From IMG/VR virus record IMGVR_UViG_3300044701_003953, positions 1-64,000 of that record: a DNA stretch of 64,000 nt. The stretch is one strand, 5' to 3'. Below are positions 4,617 to 64,000 of this stretch, piece by piece. Position 1 is the first letter of the stretch, and the number at the start of each line of letters is the position of its first letter. The notes beneath the pieces are model-generated. The model was not told where the DNA came from and did no database searches. It was given only the letters and a program-made list of their open reading frames with translations. The DNA comes from a virus. Made by a program: the position numbers and the translations under genes.

Positions 4617-4624
4617 TATTTATT
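4617..4624 (-). promoter_or_regulatory. T4-like late promoter word, start-proximal
   Basis: The minus strand reads AATAAATA with 5 nt to the ATG at 4611. By T4 rules, transcription would begin at about the start codon. Confidence 0.5.
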
Positions 4625-5393
4625 CTCTACGTTCTATATCGCTTTCATCGCATGCGTCACCGTATTGTATTTCCACTATTTTACAAGGTTCGTCGTAGGG
4701 ATTAGTCAATTTATGCCATTCCCCGCGTGGGATAGTGCGATTCTCGTGTGCGTCTAGCGTCTTCGGTGGCAATGTATACCCTCCTGCCAGCTGCCCATAC
4801 ACATCACATCGTCCGCTAGTGACATGCCAATATTCGTTCCTGTGCGCATGACGCTGTAGGCTAAGACTCTGTTTGGGATTGACTGTGAGTTCTTTTACTT
4901 TAGTACCCGGGACTTCGTGTAACACACGATAATACCCCCATGGCCGTTCAGTCTTGGGAGCCTTCCATTCTTCTAGTATCCACGAGCTTGAATTACCTTT
5001 GTCATGGCCACCAACTCCAAACACGAAACTAAGTCGTGGATCTTGTATCTCCATCTCGGGGATATTTTTATCTGTACGATCACCACCATTAGCGAAGATG
5101 ATTTCGTGGTCTGGGAATAGCTCAAGAGTTTCTTTGATGAAGTGTTTGGCACTACCATCAGCATCTGCTCGATCGTCAAAAAACACGACTTGGTCGACCA
5201 TCTTGAGATTCTGTATCAACTCTGCTCGTTCCCAGACTGGCATGAACGGTCTACCTTTTTTACGAGTCAACCATGCGTCAGAATTGACGCCCACTATCAA
5301 CCGATCGCCAAGAGCCTTCGCGGCACGGAAGTATGCCAAATGTCCCGAATGTAGCGGATCAAAGCCGCCTGTGACTAATACTATTTTTTTCAT
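4620..5393 (-). CDS. Nucleotidyltransferase - cupin fusion (sugar-nucleotide type)
   Basis: 257 residues in two domains. Residues 1-140 are a cytidylyltransferase-like fold (HIGH variant H15-S-G-H18, GVNSDAWLTRKKGRPFMP, GGDRTDKN), most like the nucleotidyl half of HldE/RfaE. Residues about 145-250 are a mannose-6-phosphate isomerase type II cupin (RPWGYYRVL, SLSLQRHAHRNEYWHV, IPRGEWHKLTNP), as in the C-terminus of ManC. Both families act on activated sugars, so a role in glycan or nucleotide-sugar metabolism is likely. The start forms an ATGA overlap with the methyltransferase gene. The fusion of these two domains is unusual. Confidence 0.75.
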   Translation of the reverse strand: MKKIVLVTGGFDPLHSGHLAYFRAAKALGDRLIVGVNSDAWLTRKKGRPFMPVWERAELIQNLKMVDQVVFFDDRADADGSAKHFIKETLELFPDHEIIFANGGDRTDKNIPEMEIQDPRLSFVFGVGGHDKGNSSSWILEEWKAPKTERPWGYYRVLHEVPGTKVKELTVNPKQSLSLQRHAHRNEYWHVTSGRCDVYGQLAGGYTLPPKTLDAHENRTIPRGEWHKLTNPYDEPCKIVEIQYGDACDESDIERRE

Positions 5394-56672: not shown

Positions 56673-57896
56673 CTATTTGACTGATTGACGGAACTCAGGA
56701 TAAGCGATGAGTCCACACTCTTCCATGTCAGAACCTTCGTGTTCCTCTTTGGGAGAGACACGCAAGCCCATGACAGCTTTGATGATATACCAAACGATCA
56801 AGCTAGTGATGAACACCCAAGCGAAAATCACGGCAGCACCGTAGGCCTGGGTCAGGAACGATCCGGCTTTGTTGGTCAATGGCACTGCTAACAGTCCCCA
56901 TAGTCCAGCTACACCGTGTACTGAGATAGCACCAACTGGGTCGTCGATTTTGAAAATACGATCTAAAGTCAGGATGGATGCGTAGCAGATCAAACCACCG
57001 ATAGCACCGATTGCCGTAGAGGCGATGGCAGTGCCTGTGAGTGGTTCAGCAGTGATTGACACCAATCCAGCCAAAGCACCGTTTAGCGCCATGGTGATAT
57101 CTGACTTGCCTGTAAACAGTTTACCAGCGACTAATGCCGCTAACAAACCACCCACAGCAGCCATGTTGGTGTTGACGAAGATCTGTGCCACAGCGTTGGC
57201 GTCAGCGAACGTGCTCATCTTCAGTTGTGAGCCACCGTTGAAACCAAACCAACCAAACCACAGGATCCATGTGCCCAGGGCCACCAGTGTGATGTTTGAA
57301 CCTTGGATAGCACGTGGCTTACCATTGGGTCCATACTTGCCTTTTCTAGCACCCAGCAGGATCACACCTGCAAGGGCAGCGGCAGCACCGGCCATGTGTA
57401 CCACGCCTGAACCTGCGAAGTCCAGGAAGCCAGCAGCGTCAAGAGCGCCTTTGCCCCACTTCCAGAAACCTTCCACTGGATAGATGAAGCCAGTCATCAC
57501 TACTGCGAACAACAGGAAGCTCCACAGTTTCATGCGCTCGGCCACTGCTCCCGACACGATGCTCATGGCAGTTGCCACGAACACTACCTGAAACCAGAAG
57601 TCCGACAGTTTGCTGTAGTAAGCGTCGGCAGCGGGTTTGGCATGATCGCCTGCGACCAGGAAATCAAAGCCCGGGATCCACGAACCTTTGGCTCCGCCGT
57701 ACATGATGTTGTAGCCTACGAGTAGGAACATCAAACAAGCGATGCCGTAGAGCGCAAAGTTTTTAGTGATGATCTCTGAGACGTTCTTGGTGCGGACCAT
57801 ACCTGCTTCCAGCATGGTGAAACCTGCGCCCATGAACATGACCATGGCGCCCATGACTAGGAAGTAAAACGTATCTAAGCTATATGCTAGTTCCAT
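56673..57896 (-). CDS. amtB: Ammonium transporter AmtB
   Basis: 407 residues, about 11 hydrophobic membrane segments. The family signature is DFAGSGVVHMAG (159-170). Both channel histidines are present, H167 and H327 (SVHGVAGLWG), so the channel should be functional. The N-terminus (MELAYSLDTFYFLVMGAMVM) is the type without cleaved signal. The start at 57896 follows GGAGG at 9 nt. It conducts ammonium into the cytoplasm and is normally gated by the PII protein, which is encoded directly upstream with a 1 bp gap. A complete, apparently intact gene inside a phage structural region is unusual. Confidence 0.95.
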   Translation of the reverse strand: MELAYSLDTFYFLVMGAMVMFMGAGFTMLEAGMVRTKNVSEIITKNFALYGIACLMFLLVGYNIMYGGAKGSWIPGFDFLVAGDHAKPAADAYYSKLSDFWFQVVFVATAMSIVSGAVAERMKLWSFLLFAVVMTGFIYPVEGFWKWGKGALDAAGFLDFAGSGVVHMAGAAAALAGVILLGARKGKYGPNGKPRAIQGSNITLVALGTWILWFGWFGFNGGSQLKMSTFADANAVAQIFVNTNMAAVGGLLAALVAGKLFTGKSDITMALNGALAGLVSITAEPLTGTAIASTAIGAIGGLICYASILTLDRIFKIDDPVGAISVHGVAGLWGLLAVPLTNKAGSFLTQAYGAAVIFAWVFITSLIVWYIIKAVMGLRVSPKEEHEGSDMEECGLIAYPEFRQSVK

Positions 57897-57897
57897 T

Positions 57898-58939
<1,042 letters not shown>

Positions 58940-59103
58940 AGTTGAATTACCTTTCTGCTGATACTCTTGATCAGCGTTGATGTCCAGGGTACTCCTGACC
59001 CTTGACACTAATATATATATAGCAGAGCACAATATCAGTGTGTGTTTTGTAGTATTTTTGTCATGGACATATAGATTTATGTCGTTAGCGACGGACAATA
59101 AAA
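58940..59103 (-). promoter_or_regulatory. Leader/promoter region of the porin-PII-amtB operon
   Basis: 164 bp between the terminator at 59104-59126 and the porin start. It contains an alternating TA run (59010-59021) that could serve as a -10 region. No clear -24/-12 sigma-54 pair (TGGCAC...TTGC) was seen. The T4-like TAAATA word found elsewhere is missing, so the operon may use host RNA polymerase signals. Confidence 0.35.
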
Positions 59104-59146: not shown

Positions 59147-59341
59147 TTACTTCTTAGCGTCAGCTTTCTTTTCAGACTTAGCGTCAGCTTTCTTTTCAGA
59201 CTTAGCGTCAGCTTTCTTTTCTTCTTTTTTGGCTTCTGCTTTAGCAGGAGCGGCAGCAGGAGCTGCGGGTGCTTTGGCCGCATCGGCAGCAAACACCGAT
59301 GTAGCAATACCCATCATCAGGGCGGCAACTACGTTTTTCAT
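59147..59341 (-). CDS. Secreted Lys/Ala-rich repeat peptide, 64 aa
   Basis: Signal peptide MKNVVAALMMGIATSVFA, then an Ala/Pro stretch and three copies of KADAKSEK-type repeats. It is strongly basic and low complexity, similar in type to small periplasmic acid-shock-like proteins of betaproteobacteria. It lies between agt and the ammonium operon with its own AAAGGA site and terminator, so it is a separate transcript or the last gene of the plcP-agt unit. Function is unknown. Confidence 0.7.
   Translation of the reverse strand: MKNVVAALMMGIATSVFAADAAKAPAAPAAAPAKAEAKKEEKKADAKSEKKADAKSEKKADAKK
59153..59220 (-). repeat. 24 bp tandem repeat in the Lys/Ala-rich gene
   Basis: Two perfect 24 bp copies (59153-59176 and 59177-59200) and a 20 bp partial third copy, coding the KADAKSEK units. 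Perfect identity suggests recent expansion. Confidence 0.85.
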
Positions 59342-59411: not shown

Positions 59412-59454
59412 CTTAAGATTTTACGCCCAAAAAGAAACCGTCCAATTTGACGAA

Positions 59455-60456
59455 TCAGATTATCTCTACGAGGTTCTCGCGGAATATCTTCCAGCACGAT
59501 TCCCAACTCCACTGTTGGCTAGCTTGTTCAACTCGGTCTCTGGGATAGCCCAAGCAGATACGGGCAGATTCTGTGAGATCTTCGCTCATGTGCCCTGTGA
59601 TGCCGTTTTCCAAGATATCAATGGGGCCAGGTACAGGATAGGCTGCCACCGGAGTGCCCATAGCCAATGCTTCAATGATCACTATACCAAAAGTATCAGC
59701 ACGACTGGCAAACACAAACACATCGGCGTTGGCATAGTAGCGTGCTAGATCCGTACCACGCAAGGCTCCCACAAACTCGATGCTGGGATAGCGAGATTCA
59801 AGTTCTTGACGGTAAGGACCGTCGCCAACCACTATCTTCCTGGCACCTGGTATGTCGATCTCGCAGAAATCATCAAGACCTTTTTCTCGAGACACTCGGC
59901 CCACGCTCAACAGAACAGGTGGTCCCGATTCCTTGGATCGCATGCGATGATCAAAGATGTTGCGATCCACACCGCGTGTCCAGGCTCGGATGTCGCCGCG
60001 GAAGCCATGCTCTTTTAATTCTCTCACCATAGTGTCGGTTGTTGTAAGCACACGACCCGAATGCTTGTGGAACCAACGCAGATAAGCATAAGTGATCCAA
60101 GCAGGAACACCGTAGATCTTTTTCAAGAACTCGGGGAATTTGGTATGGTAGGAAGTGTTGTAGCGATAGAAGTGGCTGTCTAACCACCACCGCGCCGCGA
60201 AGCCAATTGGGCCTTCCGTAGCGATGTGTACATAGTTCGGATCAATCTCTTGGATCTTGTCACCAATGCCCTTGGGCCAACTAAGCCGAACTTCAGGATA
60301 ACCAGGAGCGCCACGATTAGGGAACTGCCGGGGATCAATATAAAAGATATCGTAGCCGTCGCGACGAGCATGTATTTCCAGATTCTGGAAAGTAGTGACC
60401 ACACCGTTGATCTGCGCAGGGTCATTGTCGGTTATGATGAGGATTTTTTTTCGCAT
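59455..60456 (-). CDS. agt: Glycosyltransferase family 4, Agt-like glycolipid synthase
   Basis: 333 residues with a GT-B fold. N-terminal NGVVTTFQNLEIHARRDGYD, then TSYHTKFPEFLKKIYGVP, TTDTMVRELKEHGF and WTRGVDRNIFD. The C-terminal nucleotide-sugar site is LSVGRVSREKGLDDF, VGDGPYR and FASRADTFGIVIIEALAMGTPVA with the E-x7-E type pair. Agt in phosphate-starved marine bacteria transfers glucose or glucuronate to diacylglycerol. The assignment rests on the adjacent plcP; alone it would be called a generic GT4. It starts 69 bp after the plcP stop. Confidence 0.8.
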   Translation of the reverse strand: MRKKILIITDNDPAQINGVVTTFQNLEIHARRDGYDIFYIDPRQFPNRGAPGYPEVRLSWPKGIGDKIQEIDPNYVHIATEGPIGFAARWWLDSHFYRYNTSYHTKFPEFLKKIYGVPAWITYAYLRWFHKHSGRVLTTTDTMVRELKEHGFRGDIRAWTRGVDRNIFDHRMRSKESGPPVLLSVGRVSREKGLDDFCEIDIPGARKIVVGDGPYRQELESRYPSIEFVGALRGTDLARYYANADVFVFASRADTFGIVIIEALAMGTPVAAYPVPGPIDILENGITGHMSEDLTESARICLGYPRDRVEQASQQWSWESCWKIFRENLVEII

Positions 60457-60545
60457 GAGTGTACTATCTTGTAGCCGCGATAGCGTATGTCGTACCGCAT
60501 GGATGCGACTGCCTGTTCGCAGACTTCACGACTGGGCAGATCCAT
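60432..60545 (-). CDS. Candidate small ORF bridging plcP and agt, 37 aa
   Basis: An open frame MDLPSREVCEQAVASMRYDI... of 37 codons begins inside the last codons of plcP and ends inside the first codons of agt, in a different frame from both. It could couple translation of the two genes or be chance. No strong ribosome site is visible. Confidence 0.3.
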   Translation of the reverse strand: MDLPSREVCEQAVASMRYDIRYRGYKIVHSCEKKSSS

Positions 60546-61365
60546 TTGTATCGTTGCTGGTCGATCTTGGGGATTTGTAAGGCTTACTGCTACTAGTATC
60601 AGTGTCCACATCGTCGTGCTCTTTGGTCCAGGTCACTATCTCCCAGCGACCGTCGTAGTGTTCGACAAGGGCAGTCATTGATTCCACCCAATCTCCATCG
60701 TTCATGTATGTGACGCCGTCTATTTCTTTGATCTCAGCGTGATGTATGTGTCCGCAGATAACACCATCAAAGCCACGCTTCTTACAGTATGCGGCAAGGT
60801 TCTTTTCAAATTGAAATATGAAGTCTATGGCTTTTTTCACACGTCCTTTGAGATACTTACTCAACGACCAATAACCAAATCCCATGCGATGTCGTATCCA
60901 ATTAAACTTGCTGTTTAACATCAACACAAAGTCATAGGCCTTGTCGCCTAAAAAGCTGATCCATGGGGCTAGTCTAGTGATACCATCGAAGAGATCACCG
61001 TGTGTGACTAGATAGTGCCGTCCATCTACACCTATGTGTTCGCACTGATTGACCACTTCAATATTGCCAAAGTTGATGCCGTAGGGCATGAGCGGTCTAA
61101 GGAATTCGTCATGATTACCAGCCACATATATGACTCGTGTGCCACGCTTGGCATGACCCATGACACGTCGTACTACATTGGTATGGCTTTGTTTCCAACG
61201 CCATTTGTTTTGCTGTATCCTCCAAGCATCAATGATATCTCCTACTAGGTAAAGCGTTTCACAGGTATGATGTTTGAGGAAGTTGTTTAATTGATTGGCT
61301 TTACAGTCCCGCGTACCAAGATGCACATCAGATATGAATATAGATCTGTAAGTTTGTTGCGGCAT
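60526..61365 (-). CDS. plcP: PlcP-like phospholipase C (metallophosphoesterase)
   Basis: 279 residues. All metallophosphoesterase metal motifs are present: D13-x-H15 (ISDVHLGT), G42-D43 (LVGDIIDAWR), G-N84-H85-D86 (VAGNHDEFLR), H122 (LVTHGDLFD) and GHIHH (205-209). The flanking sequence (HTNVVRRVMGHAKRGTRVIY) is of the PlcP type, often misannotated as UDP-2,3-diacylglucosamine diphosphatase (LpxH), which is the main alternative. PlcP cleaves phospholipid head groups to diacylglycerol under phosphate starvation. The last 30 residues are a Ser/Thr/Lys tail beyond the family core. AGTAAATA lies 6 nt before the ATG. Confidence 0.8.
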   Translation of the reverse strand: MPQQTYRSIFISDVHLGTRDCKANQLNNFLKHHTCETLYLVGDIIDAWRIQQNKWRWKQSHTNVVRRVMGHAKRGTRVIYVAGNHDEFLRPLMPYGINFGNIEVVNQCEHIGVDGRHYLVTHGDLFDGITRLAPWISFLGDKAYDFVLMLNSKFNWIRHRMGFGYWSLSKYLKGRVKKAIDFIFQFEKNLAAYCKKRGFDGVICGHIHHAEIKEIDGVTYMNDGDWVESMTALVEHYDGRWEIVTWTKEHDDVDTDTSSSKPYKSPRSTSNDTNGSAQS

Positions 61366-61379: not shown

Positions 61380-61917
61380 CTTTCTGCTTTGCGACAAATA
61401 ACTTACTATGACCGTTTCATTACAAGATCCGCATATGCGGATCTATCGCTTTCGCTATTCGCTCAGCGATGTTTTTTCTAAATTAGAACTATTGTTTGTT
61501 TTTAAGTATCATCCAGATTAAGCAGCCACACTTCGCCCCTTGCGGGGCGAAAAAGGTTTTACTAGCATCATCCGAGTAGCACAACCACTTAGCGTTGGAA
61601 CTATGATTGACTATATTTTAATATAAACAATCGCGCAGGCGGTCATCCGGTACCTGCTCATCCCGTCTTCCTATGACGGCGGGGTCTACGACATACGCTA
61701 ACACATCGCAGAGCCGTGTGAGTATCGTTGTAATCTCACATCTTTTAGCCTTGATAAAAGAACATTTGTCTTACAGCGAAACCAGTTGATAAAGGCATAT
61801 CTGGTCATCGTCCTGTCAAGGATAGTCGCTGTATGCTCGCGGCGGCGGCGAGACTTCGGTCCCCGTGATCCAAAGATCCGGTTATCGTCGGCACCCGATG
61901 TTGGCCGGTGCTAGCCT
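61380..61917. ncRNA. 538 bp structured non-coding region
   Basis: No supported gene. It holds a perfect 20 bp palindrome (61425-61444, AGATCCGCAT/ATGCGGATCT) and an 8 bp GC-rich hairpin (61532-61539 with 61544-61551, TTCGCCCC/GGGGCGAA, loop TTGC). It also holds 6 bp hairpins at 61717-61740 (TGTGAG/CTCACA) and 61742-61760 (CTTTTA/TAAAAG), and a 5 bp stem CTCGC/GCGAG near 61840. The density of hairpins suggests one or more small RNAs or a replication/packaging site. A stop-free minus-strand frame crosses 61620-61770 but has no ATG. Confidence 0.35.
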
Positions 61918-62391: not shown

Positions 62392-62862
62392 TCATAGATT
62401 TTTTTCGTAGATCCAGCCAAGATGTTCGGTTTCGTGTATCCAGGTGTAGATGGGAAACGTCACGGGCAACACCCATTCTCCGTTCCAACCTAGGTAATCA
62501 CCGCGGATCGCGGGTTCTAACACTATGCCTTGCTGTTCGCAGGTTCTGCGATATGCTTCAGGATAACGCGGATAGTATAAGGCCTGCTGACGGAAACTGT
62601 CAAAATTCATGCCTTCGAACCCGATACCTTCTATGATCACGGCCTTGTCGAGATCCTGTTCGACTACTGTATCGCCGTCCCTTTTGTTGTAGAACTCCAC
62701 GACCAAGAGATGGTCTCCATGTCCTCCGGAGACATCAAAAGTCTTGACGTGGTGATGATCGAGCTCGCCGCGGAACAATACTTGATCGTCCCAACGGATT
62801 TCGATCTCGGGATAGTCGTCCCACCATACGGGTTTTAGAGTGATATCAATGACGGTATCCAT
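62392..62862 (-). CDS. Hypothetical protein, 156 aa, carbohydrate-binding-like N-terminus
   Basis: The N-terminal 80 residues are beta-rich (MDTVIDITLKPVWWDD, VLFRGELDHHHVKTFDV, HLLVVEFYNKRDGDTVVEQDL), resembling a jelly-roll. The C-terminus is GWNGEWVLPVTFPIYTWIHETEHLGWIYE. It overlaps the 3' end of the radical SAM gene by 17 bp and has an AAGGA site. It may work with that enzyme. No family was named. Confidence 0.6.
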   Translation of the reverse strand: MDTVIDITLKPVWWDDYPEIEIRWDDQVLFRGELDHHHVKTFDVSGGHGDHLLVVEFYNKRDGDTVVEQDLDKAVIIEGIGFEGMNFDSFRQQALYYPRYPEAYRRTCEQQGIVLEPAIRGDYLGWNGEWVLPVTFPIYTWIHETEHLGWIYEKNL

Positions 62863-64000
62863 ATATCCTTAACCAATCTGTTGCTTCAGGTAAAAAATCT
62901 TCGACGGTCTTGTCGTGGAGCTCATCCTGCTCGCTGAGCCTAGCAGCCATATCTCGGCGTAGTTCATCGGCTCCTGCCGGTTCAGGTCTCCGCAAGTGTC
63001 GTATCAACGCTTCTGCTTCGTTCTTTAATGTGATCTCGACGTTGTTGGGATTCTTGGTATTGTTGAATCTTTCACCTTGTATCTGTATGCTGTCTGCGAA
63101 ATCCTGTAAGTGCTGTATAGTATATGCTTTGAGATCCTCGGGCAAGAGATCTGACAACATCCATCTTGGACGATTTGGGTAGCTGGCATCGATGGGGATA
63201 CGACGATCCAGGGCGTGTTTCAGTAGCGTGTGGTATCTTAATACTGATAATGCTGTAGGTACTGTACGGAAAGTCCATTGTACTTCTGGCATAGCATCTC
63301 TCATATCATCCACATTACGCAGGATCTGTGTGATGTCTGCGCCTTGCCGCAGATAATCGTTGGCACGGTCTGCTGTTTCGATGCTGACGCCAATCTCTAC
63401 TCGTTTGAAGATACGCAAGAGATCATGATATTTTGAGTAGTTGATACTACCGTTGGTAGTGAACGACAAGTTTAACCAAGTCATCTTTTTGTCGGCAAAC
63501 ATCTTCAGCAGATCTCGGAAACGCTCAATGAGTTCAGGTTCTCCGCCGATGATGTGTACTACACGAACCGACTCGTAATTTACATCGAACCAGTCAACGA
63601 AACGCTGCCAAGCCACCGGATCCTGCGTCCATGGCTCTAACTTGTAGTCGATAGGAATCCATCCCATCTTCCGTTGATCTTGTGCCACACGGCTAGATGC
63701 TTCGGGCGGACAAAACTTACAGCTGAAATTACAAGTGGTACCGATGTTGAGATGTAGGCTGGCTATGCGGGTAACAGTCTCTCCGTCGTTGTTGGCGCTG
63801 TAATCAAAATACCCTTTGTGCGGACTCTGCTCAAAACTACGGTCAAACTGTCGCTGGAAGATCACCGACTTGAGATTTTCTTTCTGTCTCGCAGATGTAT
63901 AACCGGCAGCATCTTTCATCTGGCACATGCGGCACATAGGATCCACGGTATCACCTAATTTGATCCTGCGCTTTTCCCGCATGCGACTGCTGTTCCAATA
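62846..64000 (-). CDS. Radical SAM protein (partial, runs off the right edge)
   Basis: At least 384 residues. The cluster motif is CNFSCKFC (Cys84, 88, 91 from the ATG at 63982), followed by HIIGGEPEL. N-terminal CRMCQMKDAAGYTSARQ matches the auxiliary-cysteine region of phage twitch-type radical SAM proteins. The frame is open to the window edge (YWNSSR before that ATG), and in this family such residues belong to the protein, so the true start is probably outside. The substrate is unknown; it differs strongly in sequence from the radical SAM protein at 6845-8116. Confidence 0.85.
   Translation of the reverse strand, partial: YWNSSRMREKRRIKLGDTVDPMCRMCQMKDAAGYTSARQKENLKSVIFQRQFDRSFEQSPHKGYFDYSANNDGETVTRIASLHLNIGTTCNFSCKFCPPEASSRVAQDQRKMGWIPIDYKLEPWTQDPVAWQRFVDWFDVNYESVRVVHIIGGEPELIERFRDLLKMFADKKMTWLNLSFTTNGSINYSKYHDLLRIFKRVEIGVSIETADRANDYLRQGADITQILRNVDDMRDAMPEVQWTFRTVPTALSVLRYHTLLKHALDRRIPIDASYPNRPRWMLSDLLPEDLKAYTIQHLQDFADSIQIQGERFNNTKNPNNVEITLKNEAEALIRHLRRPEPAGADELRRDMAARLSEQDELHDKTVEDFLPEATDWLRIYGYRH

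Follow-up and report, generated by a model that had tools for sequence, protein, structure and literature searches.

The closest described system is the lipid-remodelling operon plcP-agt, already known from marine bacteria (PMC4796936) and from P. aeruginosa (PMC8528852). In the Pelagibacter (SAR11) glycosyltransferase GTcp, mutagenesis or docking has picked out functional positions: G16, G82, G85, H104, T162, R163, R190, K195, D256, T257, F258, G259, E264 and W320 (PMC8231724). From the side of the phages comes pstS, a known PhoB target (PMC10976474). Then there are the viral genes called lpxH (K03269), which appear in auxiliary-gene lists from open-water samples and are filed there under LPS synthesis (PMC10653327, PMC9611531).

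How common is the bacterial arrangement? Bacterial loci were retrieved with PlcP alone, one genome per species, and a GT4 match lies within the locus for 62 of the 80 best, a few of these being of a distant type and further away. Usually the gene directly downstream of plcP encodes a full-length GT4, about 40% identical. Several of the loci that have no GT4 match have a polyphosphate kinase adjoining plcP. Alphaproteobacteria with small genomes (1.4 Mb) show plcP and then agt; these genomes were considered as the exact source of SAR11 GTcp and set aside, their N-terminal numbering being off by three residues.

The DNA considered here (the window) covers the opening 64,000 nucleotides (64 kb) of an IMG/VR record of 207,520 bases (207.5 kb). 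It carries a portal protein, a major head protein and a terminase of T4 type and is therefore part of a phage genome. The nearest relatives of the head protein belong to large phages, for example PA5oct and Vibrio phage 2.275.O, and the source record is a large T4-like phage. On the minus strand, plcP (60526..61365; 279 aa), which encodes a PlcP-type metallophosphoesterase and predicted phospholipase C, lies upstream of agt (59455..60456; 333 aa), which encodes a GT4 glycosyltransferase of the Agt clade, a predicted diacylglycerol glycosyltransferase. Both genes are intact, 69 nt separate them, and both are under purifying selection, with dN well below dS. A preliminary description of this DNA had seen at 59455-61365 a metallophosphoesterase with all its metal motifs followed in the same direction by a GT4, and the open reading frames, the Pfam matches and the metal residues agree with it. 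Just past the GT4 stop is a weak terminator-like hairpin (59438..59453, minus strand), possibly the end of a plcP-agt transcript; it is not significant alone, five terminator-like sites being found against 3.7 expected from shuffling.

The surroundings of the pair have features of their own. Beside it, on the minus strand at 56673-59098, are genes for an ammonium transporter, a P-II protein and a TorF-type porin, a possible viral set for nitrogen uptake. The transporter fits the 'marine subtype' model TIGR03644 at 609 bits, against a cut-off of 514. As a clue to the host it gave no match at E 1e-100 among 300 genomes of Methylotenera's order, in a search without a positive control. A gene between the porin and agt (59147-59341, minus strand) encodes a small protein whose start resembles a signal sequence and in which the unit KSEKKADA is repeated. 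Another gene, at 62846-63982 and also in loci L176, L178 and L180, encodes a radical SAM protein with a twitch domain (NF033640, above cut-off); there are many diverged copies of it per record, at least five of them close together in L178. At 4620-5393 (minus strand) is what appears by eye, from a GGFDPLHSGH motif, to be a cytidylyl- or adenylyltransferase-like protein, possibly for sugar or lipid head groups.

Is the phosphoesterase a PlcP, the Mn-dependent phospholipase C that takes part in lipid remodelling, or is it LpxH (UDP-2,3-diacylglucosamine diphosphatase)? It matches Pfam Metallophos and Metallophos_2, both above cut-off. The metal positions D13, H15, D43, N84, H85, H122, H206 and H208 are kept in 161-162 of its 162 relatives, and the window protein has the complete metal motifs of a calcineurin-like metallophosphoesterase. 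The predicted model shows a calcineurin fold with a helical insert, which LpxH shares, and the closest solved structures are indeed LpxH, at about 17% identity, in a structure search that confirms the fold only. It is because LpxH is the nearest solved structure that public records give its name to phage relatives, those of Pelagibacter phage Mosig and S-SRM01 being annotated 'UDP-2,3-diacylglucosamine hydrolase/diphosphatase'. The scores say otherwise: the window protein reaches 47.9 bits with one curated LpxH model and 35.9 with the other, where the cut-offs are 134 and 190. When it was used to search 10 bacterial genomes, PlcP was the one match, at E values of 1e-86 to 1e-96, and LpxH was not matched even at 1e-3. 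In a tree whose LpxH sequences were drawn from the bacterial genomes that had also supplied PlcP, LpxH is the outgroup (100/100 support, very long branch), and the phage sequences nest inside the bacterial PlcP clade. The bacterial references in that clade were recognised by an adjacent agt and a Pho box and are uncharacterised relatives of the proven PlcP proteins (S. meliloti, MED193, PA3219). The annotated diphosphatase/hydrolase genes of MT647606 (Mosig_00120) and MW015081 group with PlcP, not with LpxH; the S-SRM01 branch is long and its exact placement unsure. Family cut-offs, genome searches and tree together rule out an LpxH identity and, judged by its sequence, the window phosphoesterase belongs to bacterial PlcP, as the preliminary description had supposed.

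One sequence labelled phage in the PlcP tree, MT836169 (L084, 'Bacteriophage sp.'), was left out as phage evidence. Read by eye, it looks like a bacterial contig, with ORFs resembling tyrS, ppk and ppx. Its PlcP homologue has as neighbours the polyphosphate genes and an ORF resembling another glycosyltransferase.

The second protein matches Pfam Glyco_trans_1_4, Glycos_transf_1 and Glyco_transf_4, all above cut-off. Its AlphaFold2 model (pLDDT 84) is of the GT-B type and finds its best matches in the PDB among GT4 enzymes, which confirms the fold only. What separates it from other GT4s is the searches and the tree. In seven genomes, the Agt type was found with E values under 1e-60, and no other GT4 came closer than about 1e-12. 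The phage GT4s form one clade (100/100), nested among GT4s encoded immediately downstream of plcP in bacteria and joined with a Pseudomonadales Agt at 100/96, and other GT4s from the same genomes fall outside (99/98). The Agt references here are plcP-adjacent bacterial proteins recognised by context, and A. tumefaciens Atu2297 and Pelagibacter GTcp are not among them. GTcp enters by way of its residues: mapped by motif alignment, the window GT4 keeps every one of the 14 residues named for catalysis or substrate, and most are nearly invariant among its relatives. The GTcp motifs GRVAxEKN and FPSxTDTFG read GRVSREKG and FASRADTFG in the window. By sequence, then, the window GT4 is of the Agt type and not a generic GT4 of LPS or capsule synthesis, in keeping with the earlier assignment.

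The equivalent of GTcp Asp256 is Asp in the window GT4 and Glu in 20 of the 32 other phage GT4s. In GTcp itself, the change from Asp256 to Glu lowers activity by more than 90% (PMC8231724). A Glu here, as in L022, L041, L045 and 17 further phage GT4s, may point to another sugar donor.

The pair is far from unique to this phage. The viral contigs of IMG/VR hold at least 597 relatives of PlcP and at least 574 of the GT4. For most of these loci the label 'viral' comes from IMG/VR; phage genes were checked in the window, in two cultured phages and in 11 large records. A T4-type major head protein was found in 11 of the 21 large records tested, including almost every one longer than 200 kb. Among the best 80 of the at least 597 phage PlcP loci, 33 carry the GT4, and in 42 a GT2 of about 238 aa lies directly downstream instead; none of the 80 has both. 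Five have neither, and four of these end within 125 nt of plcP, which leaves L047 as the one locus among the best 80 that is truly without a glycosyltransferase. Approached from the other side, the association is tighter still: plcP lies upstream in every one of 80 phage GT4 loci that were retrieved independently, and in all 78 of the 78 GT2 loci that have enough sequence. Since the order plcP-GT4 recurs in 80 of 80 phage GT4 loci, the pair in the window is not a chance neighbourhood. The coupling of a glycosyltransferase to phage plcP is near-absolute. Two cultured phages, Pelagibacter phage Mosig and S-SRM01, have a PlcP homologue with no glycosyltransferase adjacent.

Behind phage plcP, one glycosyltransferase takes the place of the other. 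On those branches of the PlcP tree that are well supported, at least three switches of type are seen; parsimony counts 15. The GT2 (L051:5910-6629 and 41 other loci) is weakly like TIGR04283 and GT21, and its position behind plcP makes it a candidate for a new glycolipid synthase. A search for its origin, in 250 genomes of Methylotenera's order and without a positive control, gave no match at E 1e-10.

What turns such genes on? Upstream of phage plcP, boxes of the E. coli Pho-box consensus are commoner than in shuffled sequence. After this first look a widened form was chosen, YTGTMAY-N4-YTGTMAY, counted when at least 12 of 14 positions agree within 130 nt. By this measure 51 of 65 non-redundant phage loci have a Pho box upstream of plcP, where 1.8 would be expected, and 19 of the 65 have a perfect one (0.2 expected). 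With the pattern then fixed, held-out loci gave a box in 31 of 42 of the GT2 type and 29 of 64 of the GT4 type, against about 3% expected; the new GT4-type loci thus stand at 45%, against 78% in the first set. Bacterial plcP has a box in 26 of 79 cases (1.2 expected). In the window the direct repeat TTGTAATGAAACGGTCAT (61408..61425, minus strand) lies 42 nt ahead of the start of plcP and agrees at 13 of 14 positions with this widened form of the consensus.

The link to phosphate is also one of neighbourhood. In some loci pstS adjoins phage plcP, and in Pelagibacter phage Mosig the PlcP homologue lies beside a PstS-like gene. Phage pstS has a perfect Pho box in 12 of 13 cases. In four loci (L051, L064, L073, L074) plcP has no box of its own and a pstS with a box lies 60–72 nt upstream. 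The window's own 207,520-base record has phoH, and pstS was not found in it. In L049 a perfect Pho box, at about 6907, stands upstream of a second and different metallophosphoesterase-like ORF just after agt.

The preliminary description had read phage-type promoter words near the gene starts as a sign of phage control. The T4-type late promoter NATAAATA is absent at the starts of both plcP (best 6/8) and the GT4 (best 4/8), though such promoters are enriched elsewhere in the window, where 13 genes have one at 7/8 or better and about 4.9 would be expected. Late-promoter control of the pair was accordingly rejected. The element that does recur upstream is a PhoB-type Pho box, and it points to the regulator of the host. 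Judged by these motifs, control by host PhoB fits the cassette better than a phage promoter does. Of the earlier interpretation, the identities of PlcP and Agt and the role in lipid remodelling under low phosphate have found support, the latter from gene order and the association with phosphate genes, and the phage promoter has not. Neither tree gave the grouping, with LpxH or with LPS and capsule enzymes, that the preliminary description had named as telling against it.

I propose that the phage pair is the plcP-agt operon of bacterial lipid remodelling in viral form, switched by PhoB, whose yield of phosphate would go to phage DNA. I would put the probability of this at about 0.8. What can be read directly in the sequences is the identity of the genes, by phylogeny and by residues, their near-obligate coupling, the Pho boxes, the links to pstS and the purifying selection. 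The model would run as follows. In an infected cell short of phosphate, host PhoB, acting at the upstream Pho box, would turn the pair on, as it does phage pstS. PlcP would remove the phosphorylated head group of host phospholipids, producing diacylglycerol. To this Agt would transfer glucose, galactose or glucuronic acid, with a UDP-sugar as donor. The resulting glycolipid, free of phosphorus, would preserve the integrity of the membrane, and the freed phosphate would enter the synthesis of phage nucleotides and DNA. Enzyme activity, binding by PhoB, the change in lipids and the benefit to the phage are what I infer. With less assurance I lean to a wider view, that many T4-like phages have a fixed phospholipase C and an interchangeable partner, either the GT4 Agt or the GT2, under the control of host PhoB, and that they would by these means convert host phospholipids to different glycolipids free of phosphorus and move the phosphorus into viral DNA.

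Perhaps the purpose is to change the cell surface and not to economise on phosphate, the new glycolipids serving to block superinfection, to alter adsorption or to resist cationic peptides and membrane-acting defence effectors. In bacteria glycolipids alter the properties of the envelope: those made under phosphorus stress are reported to protect P. aeruginosa against an antibiotic (PMC8528852), and in Ruegeria aminolipids and phage attachment are bound in a trade-off (PMC9938194). The repeated swaps between unrelated glycosyltransferases, three or more of them well supported, are also what one would expect of diversifying pressure on the product. But Pho boxes, and pstS beside plcP, tie the cassette to shortage of phosphate, not to every infection, and I consider it unlikely that the surface is the whole explanation. 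The two roles are compatible, and an effect on the envelope (on superinfection, peptides or adsorption) may accompany lipid remodelling.

It is far less probable that phage PlcP serves chiefly to weaken the membrane, for instance as an aid to lysis, and that the glycosyltransferase is incidental. Mosig and S-SRM01, with PlcP and no glycosyltransferase, would suit that idea; against it, in the large family each GT4 and GT2 relative that was retrieved is found behind plcP, and plcP is preceded by a Pho box, not by a late promoter. Least credible is modification of LPS, by an LpxH-type lipid A enzyme and a GT4 of LPS or capsule synthesis, which has on its side the public names of the Mosig and S-SRM01 relatives and the best structural match, and against it scores far under the LpxH cut-offs, the 100/100 split from LpxH, the failure to match LpxH in genomes that possess it, and the place of the GT4 inside the Agt clade.

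A good deal of phosphorus is stored in membrane phospholipids, and DNA viruses need much of that element; yet I know of no phage described as tapping this store. The earlier remark that no such phage system had been described stands, within the open-licence papers to which the literature searches were restricted: no published phage plcP or agt was found in them. Both the bacterial pathway and Pho control in phages are known; what would be new is a lipid-remodelling module of phages in which one glycosyltransferase can take the place of the other. If the proposal is true, a virus-borne plcP–glycosyltransferase module, present on hundreds of viral contigs, ties infection to lipid composition, phosphorus cycling and the properties of the envelope in low-phosphate waters. 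The two interchangeable glycosyltransferases would also offer a direct route in the search for a new glycolipid synthase.

How, then, does the phage pair compare with what is known? The viral lpxH genes (K03269) of the auxiliary-gene lists are also viral phosphoesterases, possibly the same genes as phage plcP. The present analysis suggests that at least some of them could be PlcP, and that these genes, now placed under LPS synthesis, need to be read again with this in mind. Phage genes for phosphate under host PhoB, such as cyanophage pstS and the PhoB-bound genes of S-PM2d (PMC10976474), likewise serve in phosphate shortage and carry Pho boxes of the host type. The known ones act in phosphate uptake, or in nucleotides and replication, whereas the target of plcP-agt would be the membrane of the host, and the Pho box of phage plcP differs from theirs in having the proteobacterial 7-4-7 form. 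The bacterial operon (Pelagibacter HTCC7211, Erythrobacter NAP1, P. aeruginosa PA3219-PA3218) is made up, by tree, of the same two families (PMC4796936, PMC8528852, PMC8231724). It shares with the phage pair an agt downstream of plcP, the tested Agt residues and an upstream Pho box. Unlike it, the phage pair is encoded by T4-like phages, its GT4s form a clade of their own, many phages have an unrelated GT2 in place of Agt, and sometimes a phage pstS is joined to the pair.
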